A stretch of 64,000 bases of DNA, taken from positions 27,580,615 through 27,644,614 of the forward strand of contig OX326959.1 in NCBI GenBank assembly GCA_946800325.1, in the 5' to 3' direction. The translations under genes and the position numbers were made by a program. Below the pieces are notes generated by a model. It had not been told where the DNA came from. It saw only the letters and a program-made list of their open reading frames with translations, and did no database searches. The DNA is from Luzula sylvatica. Its lineage: Eukaryota > Streptophyta > Magnoliopsida > Poales > Juncaceae. Below, piece after piece: positions 2,781 through 54,099 of the stretch. Numbering within the stretch: position 1 is the first letter of the stretch; the number at the start of each line of letters is the position of its first letter.

Positions 2781-3976
2781 TATTATGCCCTAGACGTGTT
2801 ATTGGGATTGTGTTTGTTTATGAGACAGATATTTATATTATTATTCATTATATGACCTAAACCTTCATATTTTTCAAAAAATTTAAATAACAAGAAAGTG
2901 TGTGAAAGGTTATTCGATTATAATAATCGGATAGACCTTGAATTTTATTCTAGTTTAGTGCATCGAGTCAATTGAGAATAATATTTTGCATGGCAATAGT
3001 CTGGCATATTGATTCGTCAATTGAATGATAGTAAAACCGCTAAACGGAATGAATATAATTCTAAAACGTCCCTCGTGTATAAAGTTGTTCATAGGTTTGA
3101 ACCAGGTAGTCCATTCACTGAATGAAGACTTTTACATACACTGACATATTCGTAGATGAGATGATCAGGTTTTGTTGATCTGGGGCGGTAGCGTCGATTC
3201 TAGAATATGGATATACGCGGCGTCGTATATTGGACTGACCACTATATGAGTTTGTTACAAGGTTAGAGTCATTGGAGACGAACTAATATCCAGATAGTGC
3301 GTTTTAGTTCTTCATACTTGAATAATCTCACGGATACCTTGTATGTGAAAAGACAATGCTTTGATATAATTAACCCTACGCGTAACTGTGTAGCAGAGAT
3401 TACTATTGGGTATTGTTTTTAGCATAGGCAAAGGATGTGAGGTTGCAAGATAGAAATTGTTCCTTTCTGACCTTGAAAAAGGATAGAGGGAGATATCTCT
3501 CGGGTCCTTCGATTGAATTGAGGTTGATGAAATGCTTGGCCAAGCTCGATGGAACTCAGAAGAGTTCGCATTGTTATTACCAATCTAATTCTTATCGAGA
3601 AATAATGTATCTGATCAAAAAGAAAAGGGGATGACTTGAAGTCTTACGATTCACCGTGACCCTTTTGATCGGAATATATCGCGAACAAGAGGACTAGTAA
3701 CACTTATCTAAGCTAGGTATGAAGATGTACTGTATATTCATAAAGGTGTTCTCCATCTTTTTCGTGCTAATTCTGGGTAGGTATTAACGGCAGTCTAGTG
3801 CTCGCAATACCTTGTGGATTGCTGCCATATCCACTGCCAGTCTTAGACGAACCTACAAGGTCACACCAAGATTTCGTAACATATCGGATTCTCAAGATAA
3901 TGCTCACTAATACGTTTGTTGGACAAACAAAATGGAATCACGTGTGATTAGATCTCACGACATATGTTGGACATAT
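2781..3976 (+). repeat. Element A 3' LTR, left part (split by element B)
   Basis: After the polypurine tract comes non-coding sequence that starts TATTATGCCC. This looks like a mutated TGTTATGC, the inverse of the GCATAACA found at the far end (12,756-12,763). The LTR is interrupted after 3976 by element B and resumes at 12,107. Removing B and one CATAT copy gives an LTR of about 1.85 kb. The short ORF at 3437-3634 inside it is not convincing. The left boundary is inferred because the 5' LTR is outside the window. Confidence 0.6.
3972..3976. other. Target-site duplication CATAT, left copy (element B)
   Basis: CATAT abuts the LTR start at 3977 and recurs directly after the LTR end at 12,102-12,106. 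Five bases is the usual copia duplication length. It shows that B inserted as a unit into the LTR of A. Confidence 0.9.
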
Positions 3977-4987
3977 TGAAGGAGAAAATATCCTCGACCC
4001 CGGGCCCGCGCAGCGGAATGAAGGCCCGGTCCGATTCCCCGATTCCCGAGATCACGCCATGACTTCGAGGGTACGATGCGAATAGAAGGATAGATCTATA
4101 CCAGCGTGAAATTGATCACGCACGAAGGGTTGATCGCCGCCTTCTATCTCCTGTCACGTTGGTGACAATCCGCGCGTCCCATACCACGCGTCTTTCACCG
4201 TTCGTTGACCGTCTTCTCACTCCTTGAGTCGATCACAATCCAAGAGCCACAATTGTCGCTCCTCTACTTGTATCCACCGTGAGTCGCAAGACGTCGGTCG
4301 CGGATGCACCTGCCTAGACGATGCACCGGCGAACTTGCTCGATCTAATCGATTCTCTATTACTCGAGAAACTCCTTTCTCGATTTCTCTCTCTTCGCACC
4401 CTTTCACTCACTAAAGATCAAATCTGAATTTGCTCTTTTTCTTGTGTATATTGGGCAGAATAATCAATTGCTTAGAATGATTCAACTGATTTCCATTAGT
4501 GAAGATGAGAGAGAAAATCCTATTTATACCTAAATAGGATAAGGATTAGCCAAAAGGCATGTATATCCAATATACACCCTTTCACACAGAAAACTGTATG
4601 AACCTGTTCAGTATTCTGTCCAGACGAAATTGATAAATTTCTCTGACAGAAAATCAACCAACACGAAAGTTGTAGATAATCTTATTATCTACACAACCCA
4701 ATTTGTCCCAGACCAATTGGAGTTCGTATGCAAATGTTATGACTGTTGTACTAACTGTATGTCATACTGTTGCACCCTTTCGGTATTTCACAGAAACGAC
4801 ACTTATACTTCGTTCATATGAAATATATTTCTATATGAAGGTTGTAGATAATCTCATTATCTATCTAACCCAATTTGAACCATTCTAATTGGATTTTCCC
4901 ACTGAAAGTTATGGCCACGAATGTACGACTACATTCGTTTATCCTTGTGTACACTTTTACGGTTGATCCGAAACTGTATTTCTTTCA
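3977..4987 (-). repeat. Element B 3' LTR (1,011 bp)
   Basis: On the plus strand it reads TGAAGGAG at the left and ends TTTCTTTCA at 4987, giving TG...CA ends. It matches 11,091-12,101 base for base wherever compared. The short ORFs inside it (for example 4217-4411 and 4224-4427) are not genes and recur identically in the other LTR. Confidence 0.95.
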
Positions 4988-4998
4988 GTCTCCCACTC
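4988..4998 (-). other. Polypurine tract of element B
   Basis: Read on the minus strand, AGTGGGAGAC lies directly before the 3' LTR, which starts TGAAAG in that orientation. This is a typical copia plus-strand primer. Confidence 0.8.
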
Positions 4999-6150
4999 AA
5001 TTTCAGATCTACCTAAAAGGTACTCATGCATATCCAATACGCACGATTTTAGAGAATATAGCTCGCGTATCAAATACCAAGCTATGCACATCCAATGTGC
5101 CGATTTTATGATCAAGCCCGACTTAGTACGACTCGTTGTGTGACCATGTAGGTTCGACTTAACGATGGTAGTAGGTTGTTTCCAATGCCTACAAGCTCAT
5201 GAGCGGGATCTAGTCACTCCATCATAGCTACCCATGTTAAACGAAAAATGATTGTGATCATTGTGCCTATCTCGAATAGCGGTTACTAGTTCTCTTGTTT
5301 ACGATATCCGTTAATCAAAAGCCATGGTAATAGTCATCCTTATAATTTGATTAACTACACTTATTCCCCGATTCCGAGTTGAGTTAACAAATTTCAATCG
5401 ATATTAACCATTAATATCCTTGACCGTGGCCACGGTTTTCGTTAATCGACTCATCGAGCGGCGCCTAAGAGATATCTCTTCCTTTCGGAATAAACAATTC
5501 CTATCTTGGAGACTCACATTGAATTCCGTGTTTCGGACAATACCCAATGATGACCCTTTTAACTCCCTGTTACGGTGAGCGTAAGATCATATCAAAGCAT
5601 TGTGTTACGCACGTAACGCAATCAATGATCCCCTCAAGTATGAAGAATCTAAAACCCCATCCGTCGCAAGTCCATCTATAATGACTAAACCATGTCATGG
5701 TCTCGCGGCTTCGGTCATATCCAATACATGTAACCTAACATATATCTACGTTCCCGATTCGACAAACACCTTGTCCCATGATTAGCAAAACATAATCATC
5801 TCCTCGGCTAACGTACTAGTGTACGCGTTCAGTCTATTCCCTTGTAATAGTAATGCTTCTCTCTTAAGCAAACTGACCCGCGACTAGGGATGTTTAGAAA
5901 TGACACTTTAAGTGTGACGGTTTCGCTGCACATGGTCCTCAACCATGTCGACGTCCACACAAGCTCAAATCAGGGTTCATGTAACAATCATATTACACAA
6001 CCCGCACACAGTTTTCATATAAGGTGAATGCATGAAAATTTAAGTAAACAAAATTTTTAAAAGGGATACATTCATATGGACTAAGTATTTGGGTGATACA
6101 ACGTTTACCTATGGGTATCTCCATACCCACAACCTGCGAGGACTATCGTA
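4999..6150 (-). repeat. Element B 3' non-coding region, homologous to the LTR of element A
   Basis: About 1.15 kb between the end of RNase H and the polypurine tract has no meaningful ORF. Read on the minus strand, it follows the same order of sequence blocks as the LTR of element A at about 2,900-3,880. Shared blocks include the one with GCTTTGATAT, GGGTATTGT and GAGATATCTCT, the one with ACAAGAG and ACTAGTAAC, and the one with GAACCTAC followed by GGTCACAC. In A this lies after the polypurine tract; in B it lies before it. Confidence 0.6.
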
Positions 6151-9100
6151 TTAGATAGCTACACTCTACTCTCTTCTTCCTCCTCTAGGTATCTACATAC
6201 CCATAGTCATCGCATGACAGTCACGCGCGACTAGAGAGAGCGGTTTTGTAAACGGGTCCGCACGTTCCCGCTAGTGTTAATCTTCTGCAGGATTGGAACA
6301 TTTCCAATACCCACGATCACATCTTTTCGCAAAATTTCATGGATCAATGAAATTTTCTGAGTATTAGTTAGAAGTGGTTGTGACCTCGGCATTTTTGGCT
6401 TGTACTATTGCGTTTCACGCAATAAACAACCATAAATCCGATAACTCGTGGCTACAAGAGTTTGGTCATGTATCCTTGATCCATACCACTTCTTTTTGCG
6501 ATTAATAACCGCAATATACTCGCCTCCGTAAATAGAATCATAAACTATTGGTCTTGTGGAACCTTTCCACATAACCGAGTTTTCATTTAAGAAAAACATG
6601 TACACACTTTGTGATCGAAAGTTGTGCTACATATTTGGACGTGCTTAATCTTTGGAAACTGTTGTTGTTATATCTCTTTATAACCAACACGTCCTCCACA
6701 CCATTATAGATAAAAAATCCTGAATTCTTTCGCAAAGTATTCAAGGATAAACCTCACCGCTATCAATACAAATCTCGATGGGTTTAAATATACATAACCA
6801 TTATGTATATATTTGTATAACCATTATACATTCACAAGAGTTAGTCTCATGTAATCGAATTACATTCAAACTCATGTGATTCCCACGAATTGTATTGAAG
6901 GTGAATTAGACGCTTTATTTGTACGACAGATAGCCACATACATATCATGACAGATATAATAGATCCAAACATCAAAATGTAAGGCATCATATTATTACTT
7001 TTCGCGCTGCTTGATGTCTCACATCGAGCCGTTGAAAATTTCTGTCATTCGACATTTCGATTTAACTCCTCCAAGGAGTTTACATCTTGAAAACCATTTT
7101 CAACAATATGTCGATATATGTGCTATAAAATAGAACGAGGAACTTCTTAGATCTATCCTATAGATCTTCACGCTTATTTCATAAGCGGTCTCGTCTAAAT
7201 CCTTTGTCGTTACAAGAAATATAACGCAGCTCCCACTAACCTTCATGTGTACACAAAGTTTCCATTCGTTTCGACAATTTTATAACAGTTTATAACTTCG
7301 TCAAAAACGAATATTCCAATTCCGAGAAGCTTTCTCTAATCCATCATATGGATCGTTAAAGCGTGCATATCTTATCCCCGATTCTTATGAATCGACAAAA
7401 CCGTAAGGTTGTGTCAAGTACACATCCTTTCATAAAATTTCTGTCAAGAAATTCGGTTTTGACATTCATTTTGCCACATCACATATTCATAATACGCGAC
7501 CATGGCAAGCAGAATTTCGAGAATGTGAAAGCATGGCAACAAGCGAAAACGTTTCTTCATAGTCCGACTATGAATTGCATGAAACTTTTCGCAAAAAGCC
7601 TCGCTTTACATATATGCGTATTCCTATCCATGCCGGTTCTTCATCTTGAAAAACTCACTCACATTTCACGGGTCTAACCCAGAAAGTAATGAAATCAAGT
7701 TCTAAACTTGATAATTTACATGGATCGAATCTCAGATTTCATGACACCATGTCATGTGGAATCAACTTTTCATAGCATCCTTGTAGGATATCGAATCATC
7801 ATATGATTTCGATCTATCATCATTAGCCACGATAAATCCGTATTTACCGGCTTATGATATAGCCTACTAAATCTACGAAAAATTCCTTTGTGTGTTCGAC
7901 TTGCGTTCATCAATTCTTGATGAAGCCATGTCAACTTTCATCGGTACAATGTTCATTTTCAGATCTCGAACTCTTTCGAGATTTATTCTACTCCCACTAG
8001 CCCGCAAAGAGATAAATGGCACCAAGTTCCAAACTTGTGCGCATCTAGTCCTCCTCCAAGAAGGCATCTCTTCGAGCCACGAAAATCTCATTTTCGTTGG
8101 GACGTTAGAACTAATACCCTTTAGTTTCCTTAAGGATAAACGAACAATTTCCAGATTTGGGATTGAGTTTAACCGAAACAAATTTCGAAATACACTCACA
8201 TCCTCAAATCTGTACAAGTGACAACTTCGGAACCATTCCGATCCATATCTCATATGGCGTCTTTTGTACCGATTAGAAGGTTTATGGTTCATATCTTATA
8301 TGCAACCATTCATTAGTGCCGCTGTCTCAAGGGCGTATCCCCAAAACATTTTTGGGAGATCTTATTGATTCATCATTTATCGAACCATGTCCAACATGCG
8401 TTCATTTCCTCTTTTCGGACACATCTCAATGTTCCGAATAAAGGCAATCGTGAAACGATTCCACAATCATAAATGATCATCAATATTCATAACTCAAATA
8501 TCGCCTCTTCGATCCTATCGAAAGGTTTAGCTCAAATACTCGCCTTCTCGATCCTATCGAAAAGCTTTGATTTTCTTGCTTAGTTGATTTCGTATTTCGT
8601 TTTTGAAACTCTTTGAACCTTTCAAAAGTCTCCATTTCGGCACGCATTAAATAAATATTTTCATATCTACTTTGACCGTCCATAAACGTAACAAAATACC
8701 GATAGCCTCCTCTTGCCTCGGAACTTATCGGAACATTACATCTAAATGTAATTTCCAATAATTCGTTGGATCTTTCTCCAACCTTTGGAGAATGATGCCA
8801 TTGTCGTCTTGCCTAATAAATAAGTATCGCATTAATCAATCGAATCTAATTCGGATGATTCTAGCAATCCATCACATGGAATCTAGATACGCGAGTCTTG
8901 TTTATATAGCTAAAACGGCAATGCCAAAGGAAGCAATCAACTTCTAGGTTTAATCCTCCTCGGATTTCACCATTCTTTGAGTCATTAGTTTGGACAACTC
9001 TTTGTCCGAACTCTCCATTTTGGAAAACATTTTCCAAAATACCCTTAGACATACATTTCTTTCGATCCCGCTTTTGAATTACAAGGACATCCATGCATCT

Positions 9101-9520
9101 TTATGCTTTGGATTCCCCAGAAACTCTAAGTATCTCCTATTCAAATTTCCATCGCATCAAATGCAATTTCGGGATCGACTTATCTATCGAATGCATATGA
9201 TATTCGGTCACGAAGATCAAATCTCGTACCATCAACACACGAGTGTTAATCAAAGACCCATAAGGCGTCTCAAAATTAACCTACTCTTTGAGCCGCATTG
9301 AGTCATTCAACGCGCTCTAGCTCTTGAAACTATTTCTTGAGCGTTGTGTTTTACTTTCATATACACCCGAATTCTCAAACAATTTTGAGAAATTTGCGTC
9401 TATACATGCCACCACAAGGCACGTAATATTGTTCGATTCCTTCTTAAGTTTATCGAATCCGGCTTTCTCTAAAGCCAAATCCTCGAGCCCCGAATCTACC
9501 ATTTCCGTGTCCAACACGTT
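6150..9520 (-). pseudogene. Element B gag-pol, heavily decayed
   Basis: Fragments in different frames keep the copia order on the minus strand. Gag-like sequence is at about 9,320-9,520 (NNITCLVVACID followed by FENSG). Gag-pre-integrase is near 8,880-8,930 (LWHCRFSYINKTRVSR). Integrase core is at 8,590-8,760 (EARGGYRYFVTFMDGQSRY) and integrase C-terminus at 7,930-8,110 (NENEIFVARRDAFLEE, then ASGSRINLE). Reverse transcriptase is at about 6,700-7,860. RNase H is at 6,190-6,605 (NSVMWKGS, then YGGEYIAV, then KINTSGNV). The active-site motif at 7,101-7,118 reads YIDILL where element A has YVDDILL, so one catalytic Asp is missing. In RNase H, the position of NEAEY in element A reads YGGEY. No segment over about 140 codons is open. 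Confidence 0.85.
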
Positions 9521-11077
9521 CCTTTAAGTCTAAGAACTATTCTTTGACTATCAAGGTTAATAACGGTAATTCCGGCCCAAAAGTCATCTATCATATCGAT
9601 CTAATCGATATATTTGGTGTTGCTTGAAAACATAATTCTAAACGGATGATGAAGATTAACTCCTAACCGTGCGTACTTAATCTATATGCTTATATGATGA
9701 ATATATGAATGTGTTATTTTTATCGAATCGATAACCCTCATACCGATACGGGACTCCAAGTCCATAACACTCAAGACCCATATTTTACGATCCTCCCATA
9801 AGTGACTATGGCCGACAAATGAGATCTCGATATTTTAGGTAGGATTATATCCAATCGCATCCAATGCGATTCTTGAACCGTTATAAGATTTCGGTGATGA
9901 ATCGTATCCAATACAATCCCAGTTCCGTGTGTGCATCCTATCTATGCCCCGAACTCCAATCGGATTGGCTTGGACGGTTAAGTCACAACCATATCCATCG
10001 TATCGTTCAATTGAACTACTCACGTGCCCGACTATGGCCTGAAACCACGTGAATCCCCAATTAACGCTTACCACCCGCACCAATATATACAATAGTACGT
10101 GCCCGACTATGGCCTGAAACCACGCACTATGTCATATCAATCTCGATGGTTGTGGATATGGAAGGCATTTCCATGACTTAAATATTATGAGGGATCATGC
10201 CATTGCATGTTTCTAAATTCGTGACATAATCCAATTATATCACTATCACAAGATTTTCTATATGCATATGATTTTATTCGGGAGCCTAATTATTCTAAAT
10301 AATTATCTAATAATATGCTAGTATGATTGATGCCGATCAAATCGATATAAAGAACTCAAAATTCCAAGTTGTGTAGCCAAAGTTATCACGAAAACAAAAT
10401 CAGCAACCAGAAACCAGTCCGTTGTAACGCAACATAGTCCGTTACAACGGACCTCCAGTATACTTGGCACTCCGTTACAACGGAAGTCCAGTCCGTTACA
10501 ACGCTATTTATTTCGGAGTTTGGCTAAATTTTGCCAGAAACATGTCCGTTACAACGCAACATAGGTCCGTTACAACGCTATTTTCTGCAAACCTTCGTCC
10601 AAATTTCCAGAGATCAGTCCGTTACAACGCAACATACAGTCCGTTGCAACGGACCAACTGCGTAGAGCTCCGTTACAACGGACCCAGTCCGTTACAACGG
10701 ACTCCAATAGACACCCTTGGCATCCCCGCAACCTCGTATCAGATACAAGGTCCGTTACAACGGACTCCAAGTCCGTTACAACGGAATATGTGTTTTTTCG
10801 AAAAATTCTCAATTTCCTGTATCTGCTACCCTTGACTATGCGATTTTTGAACTGCTGTTTTCGCTCGTTTCCAAAACGATCAATCATGAAACCTTTTCAC
10901 GATTATTCCTAGATACTCTCAATCAACTATTGATCGATCTCTAGCGAATTTCACTTGTGATTTTAATGGAATTTGACATTCTAAATATATAACATCATGC
11001 AAACGGGTACGAACTTTGATAACCCGTGCGTATATCTAATATACGACTATGATTCGACCCTCGAATCGATGGCGATC
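9521..11077 (-). other. Element B 5' leader
   Basis: This is the stretch between the primer site and the first recognisable gag remnant. It has no convincing coding sequence: the minus-strand ORF at 9,835-10,092 and the plus-strand ORF at 10,464-10,835 are unrecognised, and the latter simply reads through a palindrome array. That array, 12 copies at 10,419-10,784, is listed separately. Confidence 0.6.
10419..10784. repeat. Palindrome array, 12 copies of CCGTTACAACGG-type sites
   Basis: Twelve-base imperfect palindromes start at 10419, 10439, 10472, 10493, 10546, 10567, 10619, 10641, 10670, 10689, 10752 and 10773. Most read CCGTTACAACGG or CCGTTACAACGC; the first reads CCGTTGTAACGC. Start-to-start distances are 20, 33, 21, 53, 21, 52, 22, 29, 19, 63 and 21 bases. 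The spacers between sites do not look alike, so this is not a simple tandem repeat. Each site holds two opposed AACGG-type halves. Confidence 0.9.
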
Positions 11078-11090
11078 GCTCTGATACCAC
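11078..11090 (-). other. Primer-binding site of element B (initiator tRNA-Met)
   Basis: On the minus strand it reads G-TGGTATCAGAGC, immediately after the 5' LTR. TGGTATCAGAGC is complementary to the 3' end of plant initiator tRNA-Met and is the usual copia primer site. It fixes the element's orientation. Confidence 0.92.
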
Positions 11091-12101
11091 TGAAGGAGAA
11101 AATATCCTCGACCCCGGGCCCGCGCAGCGGAATGAAGGCCCGGTCCGATTCCCCGATTCCCGAGATCACGCCATGACTTCGAGGGTACGATGCGAATAGA
11201 AGGATAGATCTATACCAGCGTGAAATTGATCACGCACGAAGGGTTGATCGCCGCCTTCTATCTCCTGTCACGTTGGTGACAATCCGCGCGTCCCATACCA
11301 CGCGTCTTTCACCGTTCGTTGACCGTCTTCTCACTCCTTGAGTCGATCACAATCCAAGAGCCACAATTGTCGCTCCTCTACTTGTATCCACCGTGAGTCG
11401 CAAGACGTCGGTCGCGGATGCACCTGCCTAGACGATGCACCGGCGAACTTGCTCGATCTAATCGATTCTCTATTACTCGAGAAACTCCTTTCTCGATTTC
11501 TCTCTCTTCGCACCCTTTCACTCACTAAAGATCAAATCTGAATTTGCTCTTTTTCTTGTGTATATTGGGCAGAATAATCAATTGCTTAGAATGATTCAAC
11601 TGATTTCCATTAGTGAAGATGAGAGAGAAAATCCTATTTATACCTAAATAGGATAAGGATTAGCCAAAAGGCATGTATATCCAATATACACCCTTTCACA
11701 CAGAAAACTGTATGAACCTGTTCAGTATTCTGTCCAGACGAAATTGATAAATTTCTCTGACAGAAAATCAACCAACACGAAAGTTGTAGATAATCTTATT
11801 ATCTACACAACCCAATTTGTCCCAGACCAATTGGAGTTCGTATGCAAATGTTATGACTGTTGTACTAACTGTATGTCATACTGTTGCACCCTTTCGGTAT
11901 TTCACAGAAACGACACTTATACTTCGTTCATATGAAATATATTTCTATATGAAGGTTGTAGATAATCTCATTATCTATCTAACCCAATTTGAACCATTCT
12001 AATTGGATTTTCCCACTGAAAGTTATGGCCACGAATGTACGACTACATTCGTTTATCCTTGTGTACACTTTTACGGTTGATCCGAAACTGTATTTCTTTC
12101 A
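11091..12101 (-). repeat. Element B 5' LTR (1,011 bp)
   Basis: Identical partner of 3,977-4,987 at a constant offset of 7,114. Plus-strand ends are TGAAGG and TTTCA. It abuts the primer site at 11,090 and the CATAT duplication at 12,102. Confidence 0.95.
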
Positions 12102-12216: not shown

Positions 12217-12355
12217 TCGTTCGAACGAACTATATGAGTGCGTTCGAACGGACTTATTCGTGACAGTCAGATTTGGTTTAGTTCGAACGAAATACTTAAG
12301 TGCGTTCGAACGAACTGGGTTCGTTCGAACGAACCATTTGGGTGCGTTCGAACTG
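12217..12355. repeat. Palindrome array, six copies of CGTTCGAACG-type sites in LTR A
   Basis: Sites start at 12217, 12240, 12279, 12302, 12321 and 12344, with cores CGTTCGAACG, AGTTCGAACG or CGTTCGAACT. Distances are 23, 39, 23, 19 and 23 bases. The core has the same CGTT-NN-AACG form as the arrays of elements B and C, but CG sits in the centre. Confidence 0.88.
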
Positions 12356-12770: not shown

Positions 12771-13181
12771 GAAAATCACGCCTCGACTTCGAGAGTACGA
12801 TGCAAAGCAGGATAGACGATTACCAACGTGAAAGTGATCACGCACGGCGGGTTGATCGCTCGCATCCTTCTCTTCCTTCGGTGTCACGTTGGTGACTAGC
12901 CCGTGCGTCCCATACCACACGTCTCCCACCGTCTTGACACGCGTCCGATTGTCTTCATGCGTTCCGTTTCCGATTCGTTTGTTTCCGTCTTCGACATATT
13001 TCGTTTCTCCGAATCGATCAGAACCGAAAGAGCCCCAGATGTTGCTCCTCTACTTGTATCCACCTTGACTCGTAAGACGTCGGTCGCGGGTGCAACTGAT
13101 TAGACGAAGCACCGGCGAACTTGCTCGATTGATTGATTCTCTTCTCCGGAAAAAATGTTTTTCTCGGTTCTCTCTCTTTAC
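12771..13181 (-). repeat. Element D 3' LTR, left fragment
   Basis: This is clearly related to LTR B from its ATCACGCC block (near 4,050) onward. Shared blocks include GTCACGTTGGTGAC, GTCCCATACCAC, GCTCCTCTACTTGTATCCACC, AAGACGTCGGTCGCGG and GCACCGGCGAACTTGCTCGA. About the first 70 bp of the LTR are missing at the element A boundary. Element C interrupts it after 13,181. The ORF at 12,903-13,103 is incidental. Confidence 0.85.
13177..13181. other. Target-site duplication TTTAC, left copy (element C)
   Basis: TTTAC abuts the LTR start at 13,182 and recurs at 24,315-24,319 after the right LTR. Confidence 0.9.
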
Positions 13182-13519
13182 TGTTGGTTCAAATTTCCTA
13201 TTTTTTGATTATCTCAAATACAATGTCGATACTACTAACGAAATCTAGCAAGATAAATGTGTAGGAGATAGGTACAAAATGAAAGGATCAATCAAGAATA
13301 ACAAGAATCAAAGACATCGAAGAATCATGGATAAAATACAGAGGCACATAAATCAAGACGTTGAAGAATTGCGAAGAAGATCAAGACATAGAAAATTCCG
13401 CAAGTTGGGATAGCCACCTAATCATCAATACAATATATAGGTATCTCTAAACTTGTTTAAAATATTAAACTCAATGAAAAAGTACTTGAATTCAATTAAA
13501 AAGGCTGAAATCAGTATGT

Positions 13520-14064
13520 CCGTTGCAACGGAATTCCAGTCCGTTGTAACGGAACTACTCGATTTATTCAACATGGAAAAAACCAGTATAGTCCGTTGCA
13601 ACGTAATCACCAATACGTTGTAACGGACATGTACGTTGTAACGGAACTCTATCTCCGTTGCAACGTTATTTTATTTCCAATGAGGAAGCCTGTCACAGAA
13701 GAATGTCCGTTGTAACGGACATTAATGTCCGTTGTAACGGACATCAAGGCTTCACTTCAGTATAAACTTCCACATAAGTCCGTTGCAACGGATTAACCAA
13801 TCCGTTGTAACGGAACCCCTCACCACGTTGTAACGGAAAACTCTCCGTTGCAACGGGAATTAAAACCAAACCTGAAGTGTTGTCTCAGTAGCATGTCCGT
13901 TGGAACGGACTCAAGTCCGTGGCAACGGACTAGCTAACACAGACTTCCGTTGCAACGAACTACGTTCCGTTACAACGGACTGTGCAATAAATTCAAGTAC
14001 GACAGCCATAACGGCTAGTTTTTTGAGAGTTCCGTTGCAACGGAACATATGTCCGTTGCAACGG
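13520..14064. repeat. Palindrome array, 18 copies of CCGTTGNAACGG-type sites (5' LTR of C)
   Basis: Sites start at 13520, 13541, 13593, 13615, 13633, 13655, 13707, 13729, 13780, 13802, 13825, 13845, 13897, 13917, 13947, 13967, 14032 and 14053. Distances are 21, 52, 22, 18, 22, 52, 22, 51, 22, 23, 20, 52, 20, 30, 20, 65 and 21. Most read CCGTTGCAACGG or CCGTTGTAACGG, with single-base variants at the outer positions. Spacers differ from one another. Confidence 0.93.
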
Positions 14065-14103
14065 ACTATTCAGAATAAGCAAGTGAGGGAAGGGACTATG
14101 TGT

Positions 14104-14113
14104 TATATAAATA
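14104..14113 (+). promoter_or_regulatory. TATA box of element C 5' LTR
   Basis: TATATAAATA lies 39 bases after the last palindrome. The right LTR has the matching TATAAATA at 23,757-23,764. The palindrome array therefore sits in the U3 promoter region. Confidence 0.7.
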
Positions 14114-14665
14114 GAACCCTTCCCTCATTCTCTCTCATCACTTCATCTATACAAATCTAAACTTCCAAAGAGAGAAACCTTGCTATATCATTGAGCTAAA
14201 ACAATCTTCTAAATCATTCTTAGAGATTAAATTTCCCTCTTCCCTTCCAAATACTATTCCCAACTTGCGTGACCGATCACGTTTAGTTAGTATTTAGATA
14301 TTGTAATAGGCTAGTACCAAGAGTGTAAAGCCGCCATAGATCGAGAGAAACGTGTAACTCGATCTAGGCAAAACCTTGTATGAGTGAGTTGGAATTCAAT
14401 CGAACGCCGAAAAGGCACAAGGCATTCCCGGAGACGTAGGTACTCGCAATTAATTGAATCGGTCAATTAAGCGAGTAAACAGTGAGTTAAAGCTACAAAC
14501 CAACCACCTACCGAACTCCGTAATAAACATCGCGTGTTCGGTATCTTCTTTTCATTATTAACTTAAATTTATATTCCGCACTAAAATTAGAATTTGTATA
14601 CTTAGTCGATAATTGCCCATTAGGTTACCTATTCACCCCCCTCTAGGTTAGAATTAACCAACAAT

Positions 14666-14677: not shown

Positions 14678-14725
14678 AAAATACTAACCATCTCTTTGAG
14701 TAAAATTGACAACTTGTATACGATT

Positions 14726-16192
14726 ATGGCCAATACCACCGTTCCCAAATTGCAACTTAGCTATCCCAAGGAATTGGACGGTAAATATTGGAATGTTTGG
14801 AAACGATGCATGTTGAATGTATTTTCCATTCAAGGCCTAAAATCGATAGTAGAAGATGGGTTCATACTCAACTCTACTACCGATGCCGAAGGGAAAACAC
14901 TTCTATCACCCGATTCCATGAGTAACCAAACCTCCGACATCTATGCCCAAAATTTAATTCTCACCAACATGGTAGGATCACTCTCCGTTTTGGTAGATGG
15001 ATGTGATACCTCTCATCAAATGTGGCGAGCTCTCCTCAATCGATTTGAAGGGAACAATCAAATGAAAAGGACCAATCTTATGGGACTTGAACAACAATTT
15101 GATAGTTTCCGGATGATCGAGGGCGAATCCGTAGATGATATGTACCTTCGTATGAATCATATCAAAAACGGATTCACCGCTCTTGGAGAGTCCCTAACAA
15201 ACTCTCGAGTTGTAGGTAAATTGATTCGAGCAATGTCAATGAGTTGGGAGACTCTACGAGTGGCATTGGAGACGATAATGGCTACACAAGACATGTCGCC
15301 CGAAGACTTGGTAAGTTATTTCCGAAACTTCGAAGCTCGACTCAAGCAACTCACTCAAGAGAATGCTTCAACTTCTCGCCCAAAGGCTGTGGCTCTACCC
15401 GCCGTAGATGCAAGCGATGATGAGAGCGAAATAGCTCTTTTGGTAAGAAAATTTCGTGAATTTAGGTCACACGAAAATCGTTTCAACGACAACCGAAAAC
15501 GACAAAACTTGAAGCCATATTGTTTTGAGTGCAACAAGAAGGGTCACACCATCGAGACGTGTTGGACTCTTCATCCCGAAATCGCCCCATGGAACAAGAA
15601 GGAGGACGAGAGCAAAGATAGAGAAAGGTATGAACAACGACATGAAAGGCGACGTGAAGACACAGGTCGCAATGAACGCCACAAGGACAAAGGTAAAGAA
15701 GGTAAAAAGAAAAAGACATATAAAGCTCATGTAGGGATATGGGGAAAATCGGATGCATCAAGCAACTCATCCGACTCGGAGTGTAACTCGGATCGGGAAA
15801 TCGCCAACTTGGCACTAATGGCGGAAATCACTCCATCGGTGGATGATGTAGTGGAAAGAGCGATCCAAGCAATGCTCCTCCAACGAGCACCAATACCGGA
15901 ACACCATGAGCATCACTCTCCGAGAGTTGCCTCTCTCACCTCTACATCCAACACGTCACGTGACCTAGGTCATGAGGTATATCTCAACTCTTCATTAGAC
16001 TTAATTATGCCCATCTCAACCTCGTATTTGTCCTCTCAAGATGATTCGACATTAGAGCTTGAATCCTTTGACGAGCTCTTGAGAGGAGTTGATGAACCTC
16101 GACAAAATGAGGGCAAACTCAAGAGCTCGACACTAGCTCTTGAGGAAAAGGTAGCTTCTCTAGAGTTAGCGATTAGGTCGTATAAGGCATAA
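14726..16192 (+). CDS. Element C gag (capsid/nucleocapsid), ended early by an in-frame stop
   Basis: ATG at 14,726 opens 488 codons; an upstream in-frame TTG at 14,696 is an unlikely start. Residues about 60-220 form the copia gag capsid domain (UBN2 type; YWNVWKRCM near the start, then FEGNNQMKRTNLM, RMNHIKNGFTALG and RVVGKLIRAM). A CCHC zinc knuckle, CFECNKKGHTIETC, occupies residues 266-279 (15,521-15,562) and would bind RNA. A charged Lys/Glu/Arg-rich stretch and an acidic tail follow. The frame stops at TAA 16,190, yet the same frame continues with coiled-coil-like and basic sequence, so the stop is probably a mutation. Confidence 0.9.
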   Translation: MANTTVPKLQLSYPKELDGKYWNVWKRCMLNVFSIQGLKSIVEDGFILNSTTDAEGKTLLSPDSMSNQTSDIYAQNLILTNMVGSLSVLVDGCDTSHQMWRALLNRFEGNNQMKRTNLMGLEQQFDSFRMIEGESVDDMYLRMNHIKNGFTALGESLTNSRVVGKLIRAMSMSWETLRVALETIMATQDMSPEDLVSYFRNFEARLKQLTQENASTSRPKAVALPAVDASDDESEIALLVRKFREFRSHENRFNDNRKRQNLKPYCFECNKKGHTIETCWTLHPEIAPWNKKEDESKDRERYEQRHERRREDTGRNERHKDKGKEGKKKKTYKAHVGIWGKSDASSNSSDSECNSDREIANLALMAEITPSVDDVVERAIQAMLLQRAPIPEHHEHHSPRVASLTSTSNTSRDLGHEVYLNSSLDLIMPISTSYLSSQDDSTLELESFDELLRGVDEPRQNEGKLKSSTLALEEKVASLELAIRSYKA

Positions 16193-17136
16193 TTAAAAGA
16201 ATTTCAATGTTTTTCAAAATGTGAGTGTCAAGTTTTAAAAGGCGAGATATCTCACTTAAAAGTCGAACTTTTAAATTTGAAAGTTGAAAATGAATCCTTG
16301 AAGAGGACTTGTGCATCAATTGCACCAAGCTCTACTTCATTGGATGAAGTCTTAAAAGGGTCATTAGTGGGACAAAAACCCAATGACAAATCCGGTTTAG
16401 GATTTAAGAAGGATAACGGTAATAAACCCGGTCCTTCCAAATCCAAAAATCAAAAATCAAAATGAGAGAAAAATCGAACAAATAGTCACGGAAATGCTTT
16501 CATGTACCGTGACTATAATACGGGTAAAAGTGTGAAAAAGGAACAACCTAAAAATGCTAGCTTTAATAGGACTAATCATTTCACACAACATACACCCCAT
16601 AGACGTAACAATTTGGGACGATCCGATTGCTTGTTCAAACGGGGACCAAATGGTTACTTCTATGAGGTAAATTACCACAATGACGCTACATTTCAAACAA
16701 GGGCTCCCAAACATTACAACAACACACATAACATTTTCAAACTAATCAATTTGCCAAAACGACCAAACCGGTAATTCAACGGAGAAGCGACACAAACCTA
16801 CTCTCGAATCATTTTGTCAAGAGTTCCGAAACCGTCAACAAACCAACAATTGCATTTTGCAACTATTGTTGTAAATTAGGACACATATCTATCTCTTGTG
16901 ATCTTCGCAATCCTAGGCTTAACCCAAAGGTTATGTGGATGCGTAAAGATCGTCACACAATGGGTCCCTCCTCCTCAAAGGGAATCGGACCCTCGAGGAC
17001 GTAAACGAGTGTGTGATTATATACTCCCTCATCCAATTACCTTAAGCCAAATATTAAGGGGGAGTATAATCATAAGAATTCATATTAGGATAATTTTTCT
17101 TATGAACTATTGACTAATATGAATTTCTTGTAGATG
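16193..17136 (+). pseudogene. Element C gag C-terminal part and gag-pol junction, broken
   Basis: Frame 2 continues after the gag stop with a leucine-rich heptad-like segment (HLKVELLNLKVENESLKR). It is cut by TGA at 16,463 and TAA at 16,772. A frame-1 stretch then encodes a second zinc knuckle, CNYCCKLGHISISC (16,858-16,899), and a basic tail ending at TAA 17,002. The reading frame must change between these parts, so at least one indel has occurred. Two CCHC knuckles far apart are unusual but recur in Sirevirus gag-pol. The function of the region between them is unknown. Confidence 0.7.
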
Positions 17137-20100
17137 TGATTAAGTTCCAAAAGCAAGTCATCGAAATGGTGTCTAGATAGTGGTTGCTCTAGACACATGA
17201 CTTGGAACCAAGAAATGTTCAAAAACTTAGAACCATTCAAAGGAGGTGATGTTACATTTGGAGGTAATAAAAAAGGTAAGATAGTCGGTATCGGTTCCAT
17301 AGGTACTTCAAATTTGACCCTAGAAAACGTCTACCTTGTCATAGGGCTTAAACACAATTTAATTAGTATAACCCAACTATGTGATGCCGGGTATTGTGTA
17401 AAATTTGATCAAACCTCATGCCTAATCGACCGAACAAGAGATAACGTTACGGTGTGCAAGGGAACCCGACACAATAATCTCTACTACTTCGATTTTGAAT
17501 CATTCACATCGGGAATCCATTGTCTCACCGTAACGGAATCCACTTCACGATTATGGCATAGGCGATTGGGACACATATGTATGGAAACAATTCACCGTAT
17601 GTCCAAAAAGAAATTAGTTAGGGGCCTACCATCCCATAAACTCAAATTGGAGGGATTATGCGATGCGTGTGAAAAGGGTAAGCACACGAAGTCCTCCGGT
17701 TTCAAATCCAAAGATACCGTCACGACAAGACGACCTCTCCAACTCATCCATCTCGATCTTTGTGGACCAATGAGCGTCTCAAGTCTAGGTAATAAAAGGT
17801 ATATGTTTGTAATTGTTGATGATTATTCACGCTTTACTTGGGTAATTTATTTACTTCATAAAAGTGAAACGTGTGACGAATTCATTAAATTTTGCAAAGT
17901 GGTTGAAAACGAAACCAACACTTCCATCATCACCATTCGAAGTGATAATGGAGGTGAATTCAAAAATGCAAAATTTGATGAATTTTGTCACACCAAGGGA
18001 TATATACGTGAATTTTCCGCTCCTCGCACACCTCAACAAAACGGTGTCGTTGAGTGTAAAAATCGAACGATAATTGAACTTGCCCGTACCATGCTCAATG
18101 AACACCCTTCTCCAAAATTTCTTTGGGCCGAAGCGGTTAACACCGCGTGTCATGTCGTAAACCGACTTAGCCTAAGACCATTTTTGAAGAAAACTCCATA
18201 TGAGCTATGGTATGGGAGAAATCCAAATATCTCAATGAGAGTATTTGGATGTAAAAGTTTCATTTTAAATGAATCAAATAATATCGACAAACTTGACCCA
18301 AAATCTCTTGAGGGAATTTTTGTTGGATATTCAAGTACTAGTAAAGCATATCGGGTTTACATTAAATCCTCGAGAATAGTATGTGAATCCGTACATGTTC
18401 ATTTTGATGAAACTAACAAAGAAGCCGAGAAAGGAAATCAAAATGTAGGTACCCAAGAAAAAGAACTCGAGGAGGCACCTCAATGTTCCACACCACTCGA
18501 GCATAGATTCCTCGACATCACACTCGATGAAGTTGAACATCAAGTGGAACATCTTGAAGATGAAGAGGAAGAATCGATTAACCTTTAATACCAAATTCCC
18601 GATGTTCTTAGGGAGGTATCGGCTCATCCTCTCTCAAATGTCGTGGGAGACCCAAGGGAAGGGGTTCGGACCCGATCTCGAATTCACAATTATGTAGCTC
18701 ATTGCGCATACCTCTCTCACATCGAACCAAAATCATTCAAAGAGGCCAACAACGATGACGATTGGATCTTAGCCATGCAAGAAGAGCCAGAACAATTCGA
18801 GCGAAATCAAGTGTGGTCCTTGGTGCCAAGACCGATGACAAGGTCCGTAATTGGCACTCGATGGATCTATCGAAACAAGCTAGACGAGCACGGAAATGTG
18901 GTACGAAACAAAGCTCGACTCGTAGCCCAAGGGTTCAAACAACAAGAAGGTATTGACTTCGAAGAGACATTTGCCCCCGTCGCCCGTTTGGAATCCATAC
19001 GACTCCTATTGGCTTACGCCGCCATCGAGGGATTCACTCTCTATCAAATGGATGTCAAAAGTGCCTTCCTAAACGGGGAAATCGAAGAAGAGGTCTACGT
19101 TGAACAACCTCGAGCTTGGTATGGATCTCTCGACATTTCTTCTATCCAACGGATTCGAGCGTGGTAAAACCGACACCACCCTCTTCACACGTAAAAAGGG
19201 AGATTCAATTTTACTCATTCAAATTTATGTAGATGACATTATTTTTGGATCTAGTGACCCGGCACTTGCCGAAGAATTTTCAATTCTTATGCATAGTGAA
19301 TTCGCCATGAGCATGATGGGAGAGCTCACATTTTTCCTCGGACTTCAAGTGAAGCAATCATCCGAGGGGATATTCGTCAATCAATCCAAATACACTCGCG
19401 AACTCCTCAAACGATTCGAGCTAGATCAAACTAAAACGAGTGATACTCCCATGGCTAAGGAATCGAGACTAGATGCGGATGAGGATGGCGAATCATTCGA
19501 CATAACGGAATATCGAGGTATGATTGATAGTTTATTATATCTAACGGCAAGTAGGTCCGATATTATGTTTTCCGTATGTCTATGTGCCCGGTTCCAAGCT
19601 AACCCTAAGGTATCACACTACATCGCGGTAAAACGCATCTTCCGATACCTTAAGGGAACAATCGACTTAGGAATTTGGTATGGCCATAGTGGAAATCTCG
19701 CTTTGATAGGGTACACGGATGCGGACTTCGCCGGTTCAAGGGTTGACCGCAAAAGTACGAGTGGAACTTGCCAATTCTTAGGCGGGTCACTCGTCTCGTG
19801 GTCAAGCCGGAAACAACATTCCGTTGCCCTATCAACGGCCGAGGCCGAATATGTAGCGGCGGGAAGTTGTTGTGCCCAACTACTATGGCTAAACCAAACA
19901 CTAGGCGATTACGGGTTAAATTTTCGAAAAATCCCCATATTGTGCGACAATAATAGCGCAATATGCATCTCGAAAAATCCCGTGCATCACTCCCGAACCA
20001 AGCACATAGACATCCGTCAACACTTCATCCGGGATCACGTGGAAAAAGAGGACGTCAAACTTGAACGGGTAGACACGCTAGATCAAATCGCCGATATTTT

Positions 20101-20173
20101 CACAAAAGCTCTACCGTTTGCTCAATTCTCCGTCCTACGATTAAAGCTAGGTATGCTTTCTCTCAAAGATTAA
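17137..20173 (+). pseudogene. Element C pol: protease, integrase, reverse transcriptase, RNase H; broken
   Basis: Frame 1 opens with protease (catalytic DSG at 17,176 in WCLDSGCSRHM). Integrase follows: LWHRRLGH and CDACEKGKH form the zinc site, then HLDLCGPM, RSDNGGEF and QQNGVVECKNRT carry the D, D, E residues. TAA at 18,586 stops the frame, which continues unshifted into reverse transcriptase ([29 protein letters not shown]). Near 19,108 the text jumps from VEQP straight to RAWYG, losing about 26 codons that normally include the LYGLKQAP part, and the frame then shifts to frame 2. The remainder has YVDDIIF and RNase H (DADFAGSR, STAEAEYVAA, CDNNSAI) up to TAA 20,171. Reverse transcriptase should be inactive. 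Confidence 0.92.
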
Positions 20174-20383: not shown

Positions 20384-20714
20384 CCGTTATAACGTAAGTG
20401 TCTGCGTTCCAACGGACAAACTGAGTTCTGAAAACCTCTCCAAACACAGAAGTCCGTTACAACGGATCAACCAATACGCTGCAACGGACATAGCCTCTCC
20501 GTTACAACGTAAGTGTCTGCGTTCCAACGGACGAACTGAGGGCTGAAAACCTCTCCAAACACAGAAGTCCGTTACAACGGATTAACCAATCCGTTACAAC
20601 GGATGTGTGCGTTACAACGAACATAGTTCGTTATAACGGAAGTCTGCAATACCAGTTGAAATACCCCCAATTCGACAGTTGCGTTACAACGGAACTACAC
20701 TTCCGTTGCAACGG
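20384..20714. repeat. Palindrome array, 12 copies, between pol and the extra gene of element C
   Basis: Sites start at 20384, 20404, 20454, 20475, 20499, 20519, 20569, 20591, 20609, 20628, 20681 and 20703. Distances are 20, 50, 21, 24, 20, 50, 22, 18, 19, 53 and 22. Forms include CCGTTATAACGT, GCGTTCCAACGG and CCGTTACAACGG. Part of the array is a local duplication: about 115 bp at 20,384-20,498 recurs at 20,499-20,613 with changes. The array ends 270 bp before the ATG of the extra gene. Confidence 0.9.
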
Positions 20715-20983: not shown

Positions 20984-22342
20984 ATGTCTACCAAAAGGGC
21001 CAAACGACCATTACCAACCGGCCCTCGCCGATTTGAGTTTCAAAATACCAAGAATCATTACCTTTTCGAATCAATTACGAGAGCTCGCAAATATCACGAC
21101 GAGTTCAAAGAGCGTCCGGTGGCGAAATGTTTTTTCGTAGACATTCCTTCCGAGGCTATCACACTTCGCGAAACCGTACTACCTCGCATCCAAAATTGGA
21201 GCCTCGGTGGGTTATGCGGTCTTCAATACCCCGCGTACAAAGAAATCGTGCGTCTTTTCTACGCCCACGCCACGCATGACGATGATGAGAAGTGCATTCG
21301 AAGCTATCTCCTCGGTAAGGATATAATTATTTCCGAATCAAATTTAATCGAATGGCTTGGGTTGTCCGCGGACGGTGAGAGGTTCTACATTAGTCGTGGT
21401 GATTCGTATCACGGAAACGACTCGTAAGAAGTAGAAAACATCACCACAAATGATCGAACGTATTTTTACTCCACCAAATACGAACCAAATCTCCGGGTTA
21501 CGTGGCAAATCGGGAACAACATTCTCACCCCGGTTGTCAAACTCAAAACCAATCTCGAAACCCGAAACAAGGTATTGATCTACAATCTTTGGTACCAAGA
21601 CAGACCATCCATCAACGTTCCAAACTTGATAATCAAGCATATGGAATACTCGTTGCGAGTCGGCACCTCTTCTCTTCCTTATGGACACATTATTACACTC
21701 GCATGTTTCAAAACCGGGATTATTATACCGGAATCGGATTGGCCATTCGGGAAAGTCCCAACCGAAAATCTTTTACTCCCCGAACGCCTCGAAGTCTTTG
21801 GACTAACTCGAAAGACCTCCCGAGGACTCTCGGATCACTATTCTCGTAACAACCGAGCCGGTCCCTATTCCTTTCCGGAAATCCCCTCCGCATGGGTCCC
21901 GTTTAACCCTCCGGCGCAAGAGACGAACGATCCTCCGGAATCCTATCGCGGGCCCAAACGGCGTGCCCTCAACGATGGCTCCAGCTCATCAACGCAAGCA
22001 TCGTTCGCTCTTGAGGACATACAAGCACTTCTCGCGGCACAAACCCTCCAACAAAACACACACGTCGAATCGGTCCGCGATGAGATTTTCGCCGACAATC
22101 GCATGACCCGCGATTCCATTTTTGCGATCCGCGATGAGATTTTCGCCGATAATCGCGTGACCCGCGATACCGTTCTTGCGGCACGCGATGAGGTATTGGT
22201 TGATAACACTCTCACCCGAAGCCATGCGGTTCAACTCCGTGCCGAACTATATGACTATGTCGATAACCAATTTGAGACAATGAACTGTCGTTTCCAATCC
22301 AACAACAATCCCGATGACGAAGACTCAACCGGAGATGATTAG
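20984..22342 (+). pseudogene. Element C additional ORF downstream of pol, one in-frame stop
   Basis: ATG at 20,984 follows a pyrimidine-rich leader. Frame 2 runs 1,359 bases to TAA 22,340, interrupted only by TAA at 21,425-21,427. The first 147 residues start basic (TKRAKRPLPTGPRR). They then resemble the 'putative plant transposon protein' family found in extra ORFs of plant LTR elements (LPRIQNWSLGGL, YKEIVRLFYAHA, ESNLIEWLGLSADG); this assignment is from memory of the family pattern. After a Pro-rich linker, the last third is an acidic coiled coil with three 18-residue repeats (VRDEIFADNRMTRDSIFA type, 22,073-22,234). It sits where Sireviruses carry an env-like gene. No signal peptide or membrane segment is seen, so an envelope role is not supported. 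Confidence 0.75.
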
Positions 22343-22854
22343 AGCGGAGTGTGCGTCCACCTAGCTCATTAGAGCCTAAAAATATTTTCTAAAACTAGTA
22401 GCTATTTGCATTGTTATGTTCTGTTTTTGAAATTCGTGTTTATTTGTGTTATTTTGATTATGTGTATCCATCGCATGTTTCTATGTATGAACTTGAAAAT
22501 GTTTTAAGAAAGAGTTGATTTGGTTAAAATAGTTGTGCAAATGAGTAGTATATTACTTTGTTCACATTCTCATTACTAAAACTCGAAAATTATATCACCT
22601 ATTAATCTCAAAAATCATTCATAATTTAAAAAGAGTATTCAACTACATCAAAGCCTATACATGCGTGATATGCACATGTTTAGGGGGAGCTTGCATGTAG
22701 GGGGAGCTTTCCTTCATGATTTTTTTTTCATATTCAATCCCTTTTGATCCACTTTCAAAAAGGGGGAGAAAGGATAATCGTATTGGAAAGTTACCGATAA
22801 TCGATGTATCTCTCCAAATCGGCATTGTTTTGAAATGAATCAAAAGGGGGAGTT
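22343..22854 (+). other. Element C 3' untranslated region with polypurine tract
   Basis: About 500 bases have no gene. They include several GGGGGAG runs (22,682, 22,698 and 22,760 region) and the terminal tract AAAAGGGGGAG (22,843-22,853), directly before the 3' LTR at 22,855. Multiple G-rich purine tracts before the 3' LTR are typical of Sireviruses. Confidence 0.8.
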
Positions 22855-24314
22855 TGTAGGTTCAAATTTCCTATTGTTTGATTATCTCAAATACAATGTC
22901 GATACTACTAACGAAATCTAGCAAGATAAATGTGTAGGAGATAGGTACAAAATGAAAGGATCAATCAAGAATAACAAGAATCAAAGACATCGAAGAATCA
23001 TGGATAAAATCAAGACGCACATAAATCAAGACGTTGAAGAATTGCGAAGAAGATCAAGACATAGAAAATTCCGCAAGTTAGGATAGCTACCTAATCATCA
23101 ATACAATATATATGTATCTCTAAACTTGTTTAAAAGATTAAACTCAATGAAAAAGTACTTGAATTCAATTAAAAAGACTGAAATCAGTATGTCCGTTGCA
23201 ACGGAATTCCAGTCCGTTGTAACGGAACTACTCGATTTATTCAACATGGAAAAAACCAGTATAGTCCGTTGCAACGTAATCACCAATACGTTGTAACGGA
23301 CATGTACGTTGTAACGGAACTCTATCTCCGTTGCAACGTTATTTTATTTTCAATGAGGAAGCCTGTCACAGAAGAATGTCCGTTGTAACGGACATCAAGG
23401 CTTCACTTCAGTATAAACTTCCACATAAGTCCGTTGCAACGGATTAACCAATCCGTTGTAACGGAACCCCTCACCACGTTGTAACGGAAAACTCTCCATT
23501 GCAACGGGAATTAAAACCAAACCTGAAGTGTTGTCTCAGTAGCATGTCCGTTGGAACGGACTCAAGTCCGTGGCAACGGACTAGCTAACACAGACTTCCG
23601 TTGCAACGAACTACGTTCCGTTACAACGGACTGTGCAATAAATTCAAGTACGGCAGCCATAACGGCTAGTTTTTTGAGAGTTTCGTTGCAACGGAACATA
23701 TGTCCGTTGCAACGGACTATTCAGAATAAGCAAGTGAGGGAAGGGACTATGTGTTCTATAAATAGAATCCTTCCCTCATTCTCTCTCATCACTTCATCTA
23801 TCCAAATCTAAACTTCCAAAGAGAGAAACCTTGCTATATCATTGAGCTAAAACAATCTTCTAAATCATTCTTAGAGATTAGATTTCCCTCTTCCCTTCCA
23901 AATACTATTCCCAACTTGCGTGACCGATTACGTTTAGTTAGTATTTAGATATTGTAATAGGCTAGTACCAAGAGTGTAAAGCCGCCATAGATCGAGAGAA
24001 ACGTGTAACTCGATCTAAGCAAAACCTTGTACGAGTGAGTTGGATTTCAATCGAACGCCGAAAAGGCACAAGACATTCCCGGAGACGTATGTACTCGCAA
24101 TTAATTGAATCGGTCAATTAAGCGAGTAAAAGGTGAGTTAAAGCTACAAAGCAACCACCTACCGAACTCCGTAATAAACATCGCGTGTTCGGTTTCTTCT
24201 TTTCATTATTAACTTAAATTTATATTCCGCACTAAAATTAGAATTTGTATACCTAGTCGATAATTGCCCATTGGGTTACCTATTCACCCCCATCTAGGTT
24301 AGAATTAACCAACA
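22855..24314 (+). repeat. Element C 3' LTR (1,460 bp)
   Basis: Runs from TGTAGGTTC to CCAACA and pairs with 13,182-14,663. It differs by about 30 substitutions seen by eye and by one 22-bp deletion after 23,391 that removes exactly one palindrome plus spacer. Its array of 17 palindromes spans 23,193-23,715. Confidence 0.95.
23193..23715. repeat. Palindrome array, 17 copies (3' LTR of C)
   Basis: Same order as the 5' LTR array at an offset of 9,673, then 9,651 after loss of the unit corresponding to 13,729. A few sites carry substitutions (for example CCATTGCAACGG, where the 5' copy has CCGTTGCAACGG). Confidence 0.92.
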
Positions 24315-24714
24315 TTTACAACCTTTCACTCAATAGAAATATGTCTCTCAATATTTCTAGAATATTCTGAATATTCTGAATGAATTTACATCTAGATTGA
24401 CCAGAGAGAGAGAGAAACATCATATTTATATCACATAGGATTATGATTGGCCAAAAGACATGTATATCCAATATACACTCTTTCACACAGAAAGTTGCAT
24501 GAATCTGTCAAATATTCTGTTCATACGAAATTGGTAAATTCCTCTGACAGAAAATCAACCAACACGAAAGTTTTAGATAATCTTATTATCTACACGACCC
24601 AATTTGGTCTGGCCCAATTGGAGTACGTATACAAAAGTTATGACTGTTTTACTAACAGTATATCATAATGTTGCACCCTTATTTACGGTTGATCCTGAAA
24701 CTATATTTCCTTCA
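24315..24714 (-). repeat. Element D 3' LTR, right fragment
   Basis: Begins with TTTAC, the target duplication of C, and continues the LTR interrupted at 13,181. It matches LTR B (4,520-4,987) with many substitutions and lacks about 190 bp present in B between TTGCACCCTT and TTTACGGTTGATCC. It ends ...CCTTCA at 24,714, the same boundary as LTR B at 4,987. Confidence 0.85.

Positions 24715-44485: not shown

Positions 44486-44520
<35 letters not shown>
41893..44520 (+). repeat. Left arm of a 5.7-kb inverted repeat
   Basis: This arm recurs inverted at about 45,160-47,592. Examples: the 61-codon ORF starting MPGLWNNILAQPPSSS (42,676-42,861) is mirrored at 46,706-46,888 on the other strand, and the AGACCAGGATAATCAAAAGTC block at 41,946 is mirrored near 47,535. 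The arm has a TATA-like sequence (42,662), a pyrimidine-rich leader and several exon/intron-like junctions (AG|ATCTATGATG at 43,348; GAG|GTAATTTT at 43,560) but no long ORF. Confidence 0.85.
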
Positions 44521-44521
<1 letters not shown>

Positions 44522-45163: not shown

Positions 45164-45209
<46 letters not shown>

Positions 45210-45210
45210 G
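44483..45210. repeat. Centre of the inverted repeat: TG/CA microsatellites and GC-rich minisatellite
   Basis: A (TG)n tract at 44,484-44,520 and a (CA)n tract at 45,166-45,207 face one another around a GC-rich core that is itself partly mirrored. Within the core, a unit of 47-48 bases (containing GGCCGAACCTCGCAGGCCCA) recurs five times, starting at 44911, 44958, 45006, 45053 and 45100. The long overlapping ORFs here (up to 326 codons) on both strands are repeat artefacts. Confidence 0.9.
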
Positions 45211-54090: not shown

Positions 54091-54099
54091 GCTGCCAAA

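Follow-up and report, generated by a model that had tools for sequence, protein, structure and literature searches.

Palindromic boxes arrayed in the LTR of a Ty1/copia retrotransposon of Luzula sylvatica (element C), and boxes of the same kind in several unrelated LTR lineages, where they occupy different positions within the element, are set apart by distances near whole turns of the DNA helix, and this helical spacing is real and general. It had been proposed for the one array by a sequence-only reading, and it holds in five separate groups of arrays. With a probability of about 0.55, we interpret the array of C as a variant of the RM boxes of Sireviruses, in which helically spaced boxes of MYB-like half-sites would be occupied by a putative host dimer or pair of monomers that drives transcription. 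The window is the whole stretch of DNA that was analysed (64,000 nucleotides), and positions given without a locus refer to it. Element C comprises the following features:

13182 to 14663, plus strand: 5' LTR of element C (Ty1/copia, Sirevirus-type), with the TSD TTTAC at 13177-13181 and 24315-24319.
13520 to 14064, no strand: U3 array in the 5' LTR, 18 boxes of the CCGTTRYAACGG type.
14106 to 14115, plus strand: TATA box, TATAAATAGA, 52 bp from the start of the last box core.
14723 to 20170, plus strand: gag and pol (Pfam Retrotran_gag_2, gag_pre-integrs, rve, RVT_2), broken, in several separate frames.
20385 to 20713, no strand: linker array, 12 boxes, between the end of pol and the ENV-like region (ATG at 20984).
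20984 to 22342, plus strand: ENV-like region, named by position, with open pieces at 20984-21424 and 21575-22342.
22682 to 22852, plus strand: four AGGGGGAG polypurine octamers, at 22682, 22699, 22761 and 22845.
22855 to 24314, plus strand: 3' LTR, 96.4% identical to the 5' LTR, with 17 boxes at 23194-23714.

Of the 18 boxes in the U3 array, 17 have an exact core CGTTNNAACG, against a chance expectation with a mean of 0.056 and a maximum of 2 (2000 first-order Markov simulations of the region). The boxes had been described as eighteen 12-base palindromes; their number stands, but perfect 12-base palindromes make up only 5 of the 18, the remainder having a non-palindromic centre (mostly GT), one or more altered outer bases, or an altered inner base (once in the core). 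Start-to-start distances are 21, 52, 22, 18, 22, 52, 22, 51, 22, 23, 20, 52, 20, 30, 20, 65 and 21 bp, so that 51-52 bp occurs four times and 30 and 65 bp once each, just as first reported. Exact cores number 60 in the window, and 59 of them lie inside five arrays. Examined as a CpG island, the array of C has a CpG observed/expected ratio of 1.45 at a G+C content of only 0.44. A plain one-unit tandem repeat is ruled out for it, since Tandem Repeats Finder reports a single 22-bp duplicate inside; this unit is an exact tandem copy in the 5' LTR and single in the 3' LTR, whose array is shorter by that unit. Self-BLAST of the window matches the array to itself at an offset of 187 bp (72%), which we think is largely due to the boxes, and no long-spacer pair within the U3 of C was among the 60 best of 778 spacer comparisons.

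A 335-bp LTR probe of C gave 2113 candidate places in the genome; 40 family copies were scored, two of them the window's own, and 32 of the other 38 were examined, all 97-99% identical over the probe. Eighteen boxes at near-identical distances are found in 23 of these 32 copies, 17 boxes in five, and 15, 10, 9 and 1 in one copy each, and the last box lies 52 bp from TATAAATAGA in every one. Spacing is kept within the family, although at such identity its near-constancy says little by itself. At locus L043, a C-family LTR carries the TATA box and the last box, and no further box was found in the fetched stretch.

Judged from its sequence, element C matches the non-coding signatures of a Sirevirus as described in PMC2829016, where the octamer lies 10 bp before the 3' LTR and several PPT copies are found in the linker, mostly after ENV. 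The last octamer AGGGGGAG of C (22845) stands exactly 10 bp before the 3' LTR (22855); all four linker copies follow the ENV-like region, and one more lies at 17057 in the coding part. The Sirevirus inverted repeat has its left arm at the terminal PPT and its right arm about 28 bp into the 3' LTR, and an inverted repeat at this junction also occurs in about half of the classic elements (PMC2829016). In C, AATCAAA (22838-22844) borders the octamer and its inverse lies 22 bp inside the 3' LTR (22877), a pair seen in 0 of 500 shuffles when a 7-bp exact core was searched for. The polyC-rich integrase signal, for which PMC2829016 gives a distance of about 21 bp to the 3' end of the LTR, would correspond, going by that description, to TTCACCCCCCTCTAGG, which the 5' LTR of C carries some 15-20 bp short of its end. 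Boxes are present at both expected places, 18 in the 5' LTR upstream of TATA and 12 in the linker upstream of the ENV-like region, in which no Pfam family was found. The best match of the RT of C is 92% identical, and Juncus effusus, tenth in the list and the nearest among the noted entries that carry an organism name, matches at 75% over 86%. An older A-family element seems to have received C as an insertion in its LTR (flanks 12775-13181 and 24318-27501); the flanks match the A LTR (70% and 87%) and the A LTR plus internal sequence (89%). The window further contains an AT-rich inverted repeat at 31704-32765 (arms 95-96% complementary; fold-back or MITE-like), an AP2/ERF transcription factor gene at 35644-36357 (Pfam AP2), a large inverted repeat at 41910-47590 (arms 90-97% complementary in pieces, with a GC-rich C/G-tract centre at about 44600-45200), and a higher-order tandem array at 54069-56396 with periods of 38, 77, 115 and 153 bp.

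The same boxes, termed class 1, are carried by elements of other lineages. Element E (C1:88326-98808; loci L064, L065 and L077) is young and has 1571-bp LTRs that are 99.94% identical and an open gag-pol of 1797 aa in the Ty3/gypsy domain order, and its primer site is one that we take to be Athila-like. It bears 12 class-1 boxes per LTR, with 14 more in the stretch from pol to the 3' LTR, and further copies of the element lie at 1.44-1.48 Mb. Family A is represented in the window itself:

3977 to 12101, minus strand: element A, non-Sirevirus copia by its sequence, with decayed pol, identical 1011-bp LTRs, TSD ATATG, and an array downstream of the PBS.
10419 to 10784, no strand: 5' leader array of A, 12 boxes of the CCGTTACAACGG type at distances of 20, 33, 21, 53, 21, 52, 22, 29, 19, 63 and 21 bp.

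This leader array begins about 310 bp and ends about 670 bp past the LTR end and recurs at the A-type loci L067-L071; a leader probe gave 1769 candidate places in the genome, 40 of which were scored. A and C differ in their LTR ends, the integrase fragment of A is close to that of element B and unlike that of C, and AGGGGGAG was not found beside the 3' LTR of A (4988-6200 searched); the assignment of family A to copia outside the Sireviruses is made on these characters. Since its LTRs are identical and its gag-pol is decayed in several frames, A was probably mobilised in trans. The arrays of E and A lie about 640-1220 bp downstream of TATA (a single TATA motif was found in the E LTR, at 413, and the array there spans 1054-1389), and promoter-proximal action is therefore not general. 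The original placement of the array just upstream of the TATA box is right for C (52 bp) and for its relative F (locus L066), whose last box lies 53 bp before TATA, but it does not serve as a general rule.

Five of six comparisons of spacers between lineages do not beat shuffles; E-type against A spacers exceed them on the top three matches (0/100). The spacer GGATTAACCAATCC, which includes a CCAAT box, is identical in C (13790-13803, 20579-20592 and 23441-23454, in the U3, linker and 3' LTR) and in the Ty3/gypsy element E (L064:5556, L065:4468, L077:1556), and because of such few shared spacers the arrays of different lineages may not be fully independent. The weak or absent homology suggests either that the lattice was shared long ago and the spacers have since been scrambled, or that the lineages converged. 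The claim that spacing rather than spacer sequence is kept thus agrees with the little or no homology between lineages, but not with the exact 22-bp duplicate in C or with the homology of the C and F arrays. In viral contigs the box-pair pattern was found in 23 stretches, and no relative of the RT of C was found there. In Luzula sylvatica (2n=12, six pseudomolecules, 468 Mb), the LTR lineages of highest abundance are Angela, Athila and SIRE (PMC11538461).

The arrays used to assess the helical period lie in the window or at fetched loci, almost all of them within the first 20 Mb of a single chromosome. They were grouped as Sirevirus (C, F), E-type, A-type, K and class 2, with L083-L085, L088 and L089 assigned by spacer resemblance. 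After removal of intervals whose spacers were at least 70% identical, 88 of 277 intervals (up to 80 bp) were retained, and they fall at 17-25 (36), 29-34 (10), 39-45 (7), 50-54 (21), 61-66 (7) and 72-76 bp (3); the short-range peak comes from the fetched arrays. By these bins, which were chosen after the data had been seen, 84 of the 88 are in phase at 2 to 7 turns and 4 lie between bins, and intervals within a lineage share ancestry, so that the independent evidence is smaller than the raw counts. A bin-free scan of the 88 intervals gave a best period of 10.4 bp with R(10.5)=0.57, which none of the 4000 controls jittered with an SD of 5 bp equalled. Each of the five groups alone peaks at a period of 10.1-10.5, and for intervals of at least 27 bp the p values were 0 (Sirevirus), 0.006 (E-type), 0.0125 (A), 0.04 (K, 4 intervals) and 0.016 (class 2). 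At a stricter spacer cut of 60%, 31 intervals gave a best period of 10.8 and R(10.5)=0.53; an earlier run, in which the cuts were different, is in agreement apart from a peak at 11.0 when only its long intervals are taken. Across the genome (445 Mb searched in 37 contigs, six of them of 60-77 Mb), box pairs with RY centres lie 17-25 bp apart 23,722 times, against 2 for the reversed pattern. Pairs 54-60 bp apart number 1210, and an intervening box, intact or with 1-2 mismatches, was seen by eye in all 50 of the places listed among them. Decayed boxes hidden in the 50-53 bp spacers were ruled out (0 in 42 intervals), which makes five turns a primitive distance.

The boxes themselves were compared across eight arrays, whose shared ancestry makes the counts non-independent. 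An RY centre is found in 109 of 113 class-1 boxes with an exact core, so that YAACG is read on both strands, and C and G stand outside the core in 63 of the 113; the half-site YAACGG (also read CNGTTR) fits what we take to be the MYB consensus. In the other 50 class-1 boxes the outer pair is changed, and the change is compensated on the other side in one, while self-complementary centres number 36 against 54.5 expected under independence. These counts look like two separately read half-sites rather than a hairpin selected for pairing, and a putative protein dimer would fit them. Boxes of a second class, CGTTCGAACG, have a CG centre in 34 of 44 and do not fit YAACGG. One such array lies in the window:

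12218 to 12354, no strand: array X, six class-2 boxes CGTTCGAACG (two with one mismatch) at distances of 23, 39, 23, 19 and 23 bp.

At L073 and L075, class-2 arrays lie upstream of ENV-like sequence. L073 shows the array followed by ENV-like sequence twice (3496-3839 and 8655-8998, 5159 bp apart), with class-1 and class-2 centres mixed.

The half-site counts also weigh on a different reading, in which the palindromes act as RNA or single-stranded hairpins and the self-folding array transcripts feed or resist small-RNA silencing. Folded as RNA, the C array reaches -264 kcal/mol (z -19.7 against 100 shuffles), the palindrome regions of maize Sireviruses are hotspots of sRNA mapping (PMC5311732), and the arrays of E and A, being downstream of TATA, would be in transcribed leaders. 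However, complementarity is not kept at the outer pair, self-complementary centres fall below expectation (shared ancestry weakening both counts), and a helical DNA period has no obvious reason in RNA. We regard hairpins as unlikely, if the least unlikely of the alternatives.

Slightly less probable again is a Su(Hw)-like array for insulation or chromatin docking, by which a host architectural protein would shield the element rather than activate it, an idea drawn by analogy with the Drosophila gypsy insulator (340 bp, 12 sites, in the 5' UTR; PMC2374998). Family A resembles that insulator in that its 5' leader holds about a dozen clustered sites, which in gypsy serve one host protein; the sites of gypsy are non-palindromic zinc-finger sites in an animal element (PMC2374998), and no homology is claimed. 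With 12-22 clustered sites over about 340-725 bp, the A-type 5' leaders and the E LTR are comparable in scale, and the variable position of the arrays relative to TATA would suit insulation. The arrays of C and F, however, immediately precede TATA, a position expected of an activator, and we know of no Su(Hw)-like protein in plants, which also counts against shielding.

Conservation of the boxes was examined between C and F, whose U3 is 67% identical to that of C over about 1 kb and whose U3 array is homologous. Boxes are 81% identical (193/238), array spacers 60% (168/278), the upstream U3 74% (242/328) and the downstream flank 63% (73/116). The difference is clear between boxes and spacers (p=3e-7) and between spacers and upstream U3 (p=0.0005), while the boxes are only weakly better conserved than the upstream U3 (p=0.04); change is thus faster in the spacers than in the upstream LTR, while the boxes are retained. 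The largest indels between the two arrays, of 42 and 21 bp, equal four and two turns, and the smaller ones are 1-5 bp. Neutral hypervariable tandem repeats, grown by slippage or unequal exchange and spaced by the copying of a few units, would account for these two large indels between homologous arrays, for the 22-bp duplicate and for the fast spacers, and have a parallel in the tandem repeats common between pol and the 3' LTR of plant Retand elements (PMC11963269), but they are the least probable explanation, given boxes kept over spacers, a 10.5-bp lattice in five groups whose spacers show little or no homology to one another, 31- and 52-bp distances that are not multiples of a 21-22 bp unit, and 50-53 bp spacers free of decayed boxes.

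The favoured reading is the variant of the Sirevirus RM boxes. Spacing that is strict, largely independent of the spacers and found again in several lineages suggests that proteins cooperate with one another on the DNA. In each box, a host dimer or two monomers would occupy a pair of inverted half-sites of MYB-like type (YAACGG); boxes 2, 3, 4, 5 or 6 turns apart would bring the bound factors onto the same face of the DNA, where they could cooperate and, acting like an enhancer, drive the element's transcription from its LTR; in C, the linker array perhaps drives the ENV-like gene. One module may thus serve at three places, ahead of TATA, within transcribed leaders and ahead of ENV. It is possible, at somewhat less than even odds, that LTR elements of both superfamilies converged on, or exchanged, one modular MYB-like dyad lattice at whole turns; this would embrace the Sirevirus copia, the Athila-looking Ty3/gypsy element and the non-autonomous non-Sirevirus copia, with the lattice usable at each of these three places. 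If a single factor serves all of them, one host protein would govern several abundant LTR lineages at once, and a lattice common to Ty1/copia and Ty3/gypsy would mean that unrelated retrotransposons rely on one host switch, which is unusual. The boxes could be used as bait to find that factor.

The nearest known system is that of the Sirevirus RM boxes, which are palindromic, number 8 to 32 per element and lie in the LTR before TATA (PMC2829016, Bousios et al. 2010), and also upstream of ENV in ENV-bearing Sireviruses; they are reported absent from classic Ty1/copia elements (PMC2829016). The sequence-only reading knew of no copia promoter with such a layout, which was mistaken, as this arrangement before TATA and ENV had been published (PMC2829016). 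The array of C shares with it many palindromic copies before a conserved TATA and again before ENV, high identity between copies and an apparent richness in CpG, and is thus an array of a known kind. The RM core is CGG-CCG, whereas the boxes here read CCG-N6-CGG, in reverse order, and for this reason we class the array as a variant rather than a plain member; the published RM of Tnd-1 also departs from the CGG-CCG signature (PMC2829016). A spacing rule does not appear in the accessible part of PMC2829016, where 'spacing' and 'helical' occur in reference titles only; that part leaves the role of the palindromes open and calls for promoter tests. The LTR palindromes of maize Sireviruses (Bousios et al. 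2016, via PMC5311732) form a palindrome-rich, hypervariable regulatory region, as does the array of C, and are discussed for small-RNA mapping and rapid evolution, with no spacing rule found in the portion of PMC5311732 available. In the literature searched, with subscription papers mostly outside it, we recognised no report of helical spacing or of these palindromes in Ty3/gypsy. RM boxes are described for Sireviruses in PMC2829016, whose accessible part makes no mention of them in Ty3/gypsy, whereas class-1 boxes are also present in the Ty3/gypsy element E and in the non-Sirevirus copia family A. The present arrays go beyond the literature found in two respects: the helical spacing, and the occurrence of the same box with the same spacing in Ty3/gypsy and in non-Sirevirus copia.
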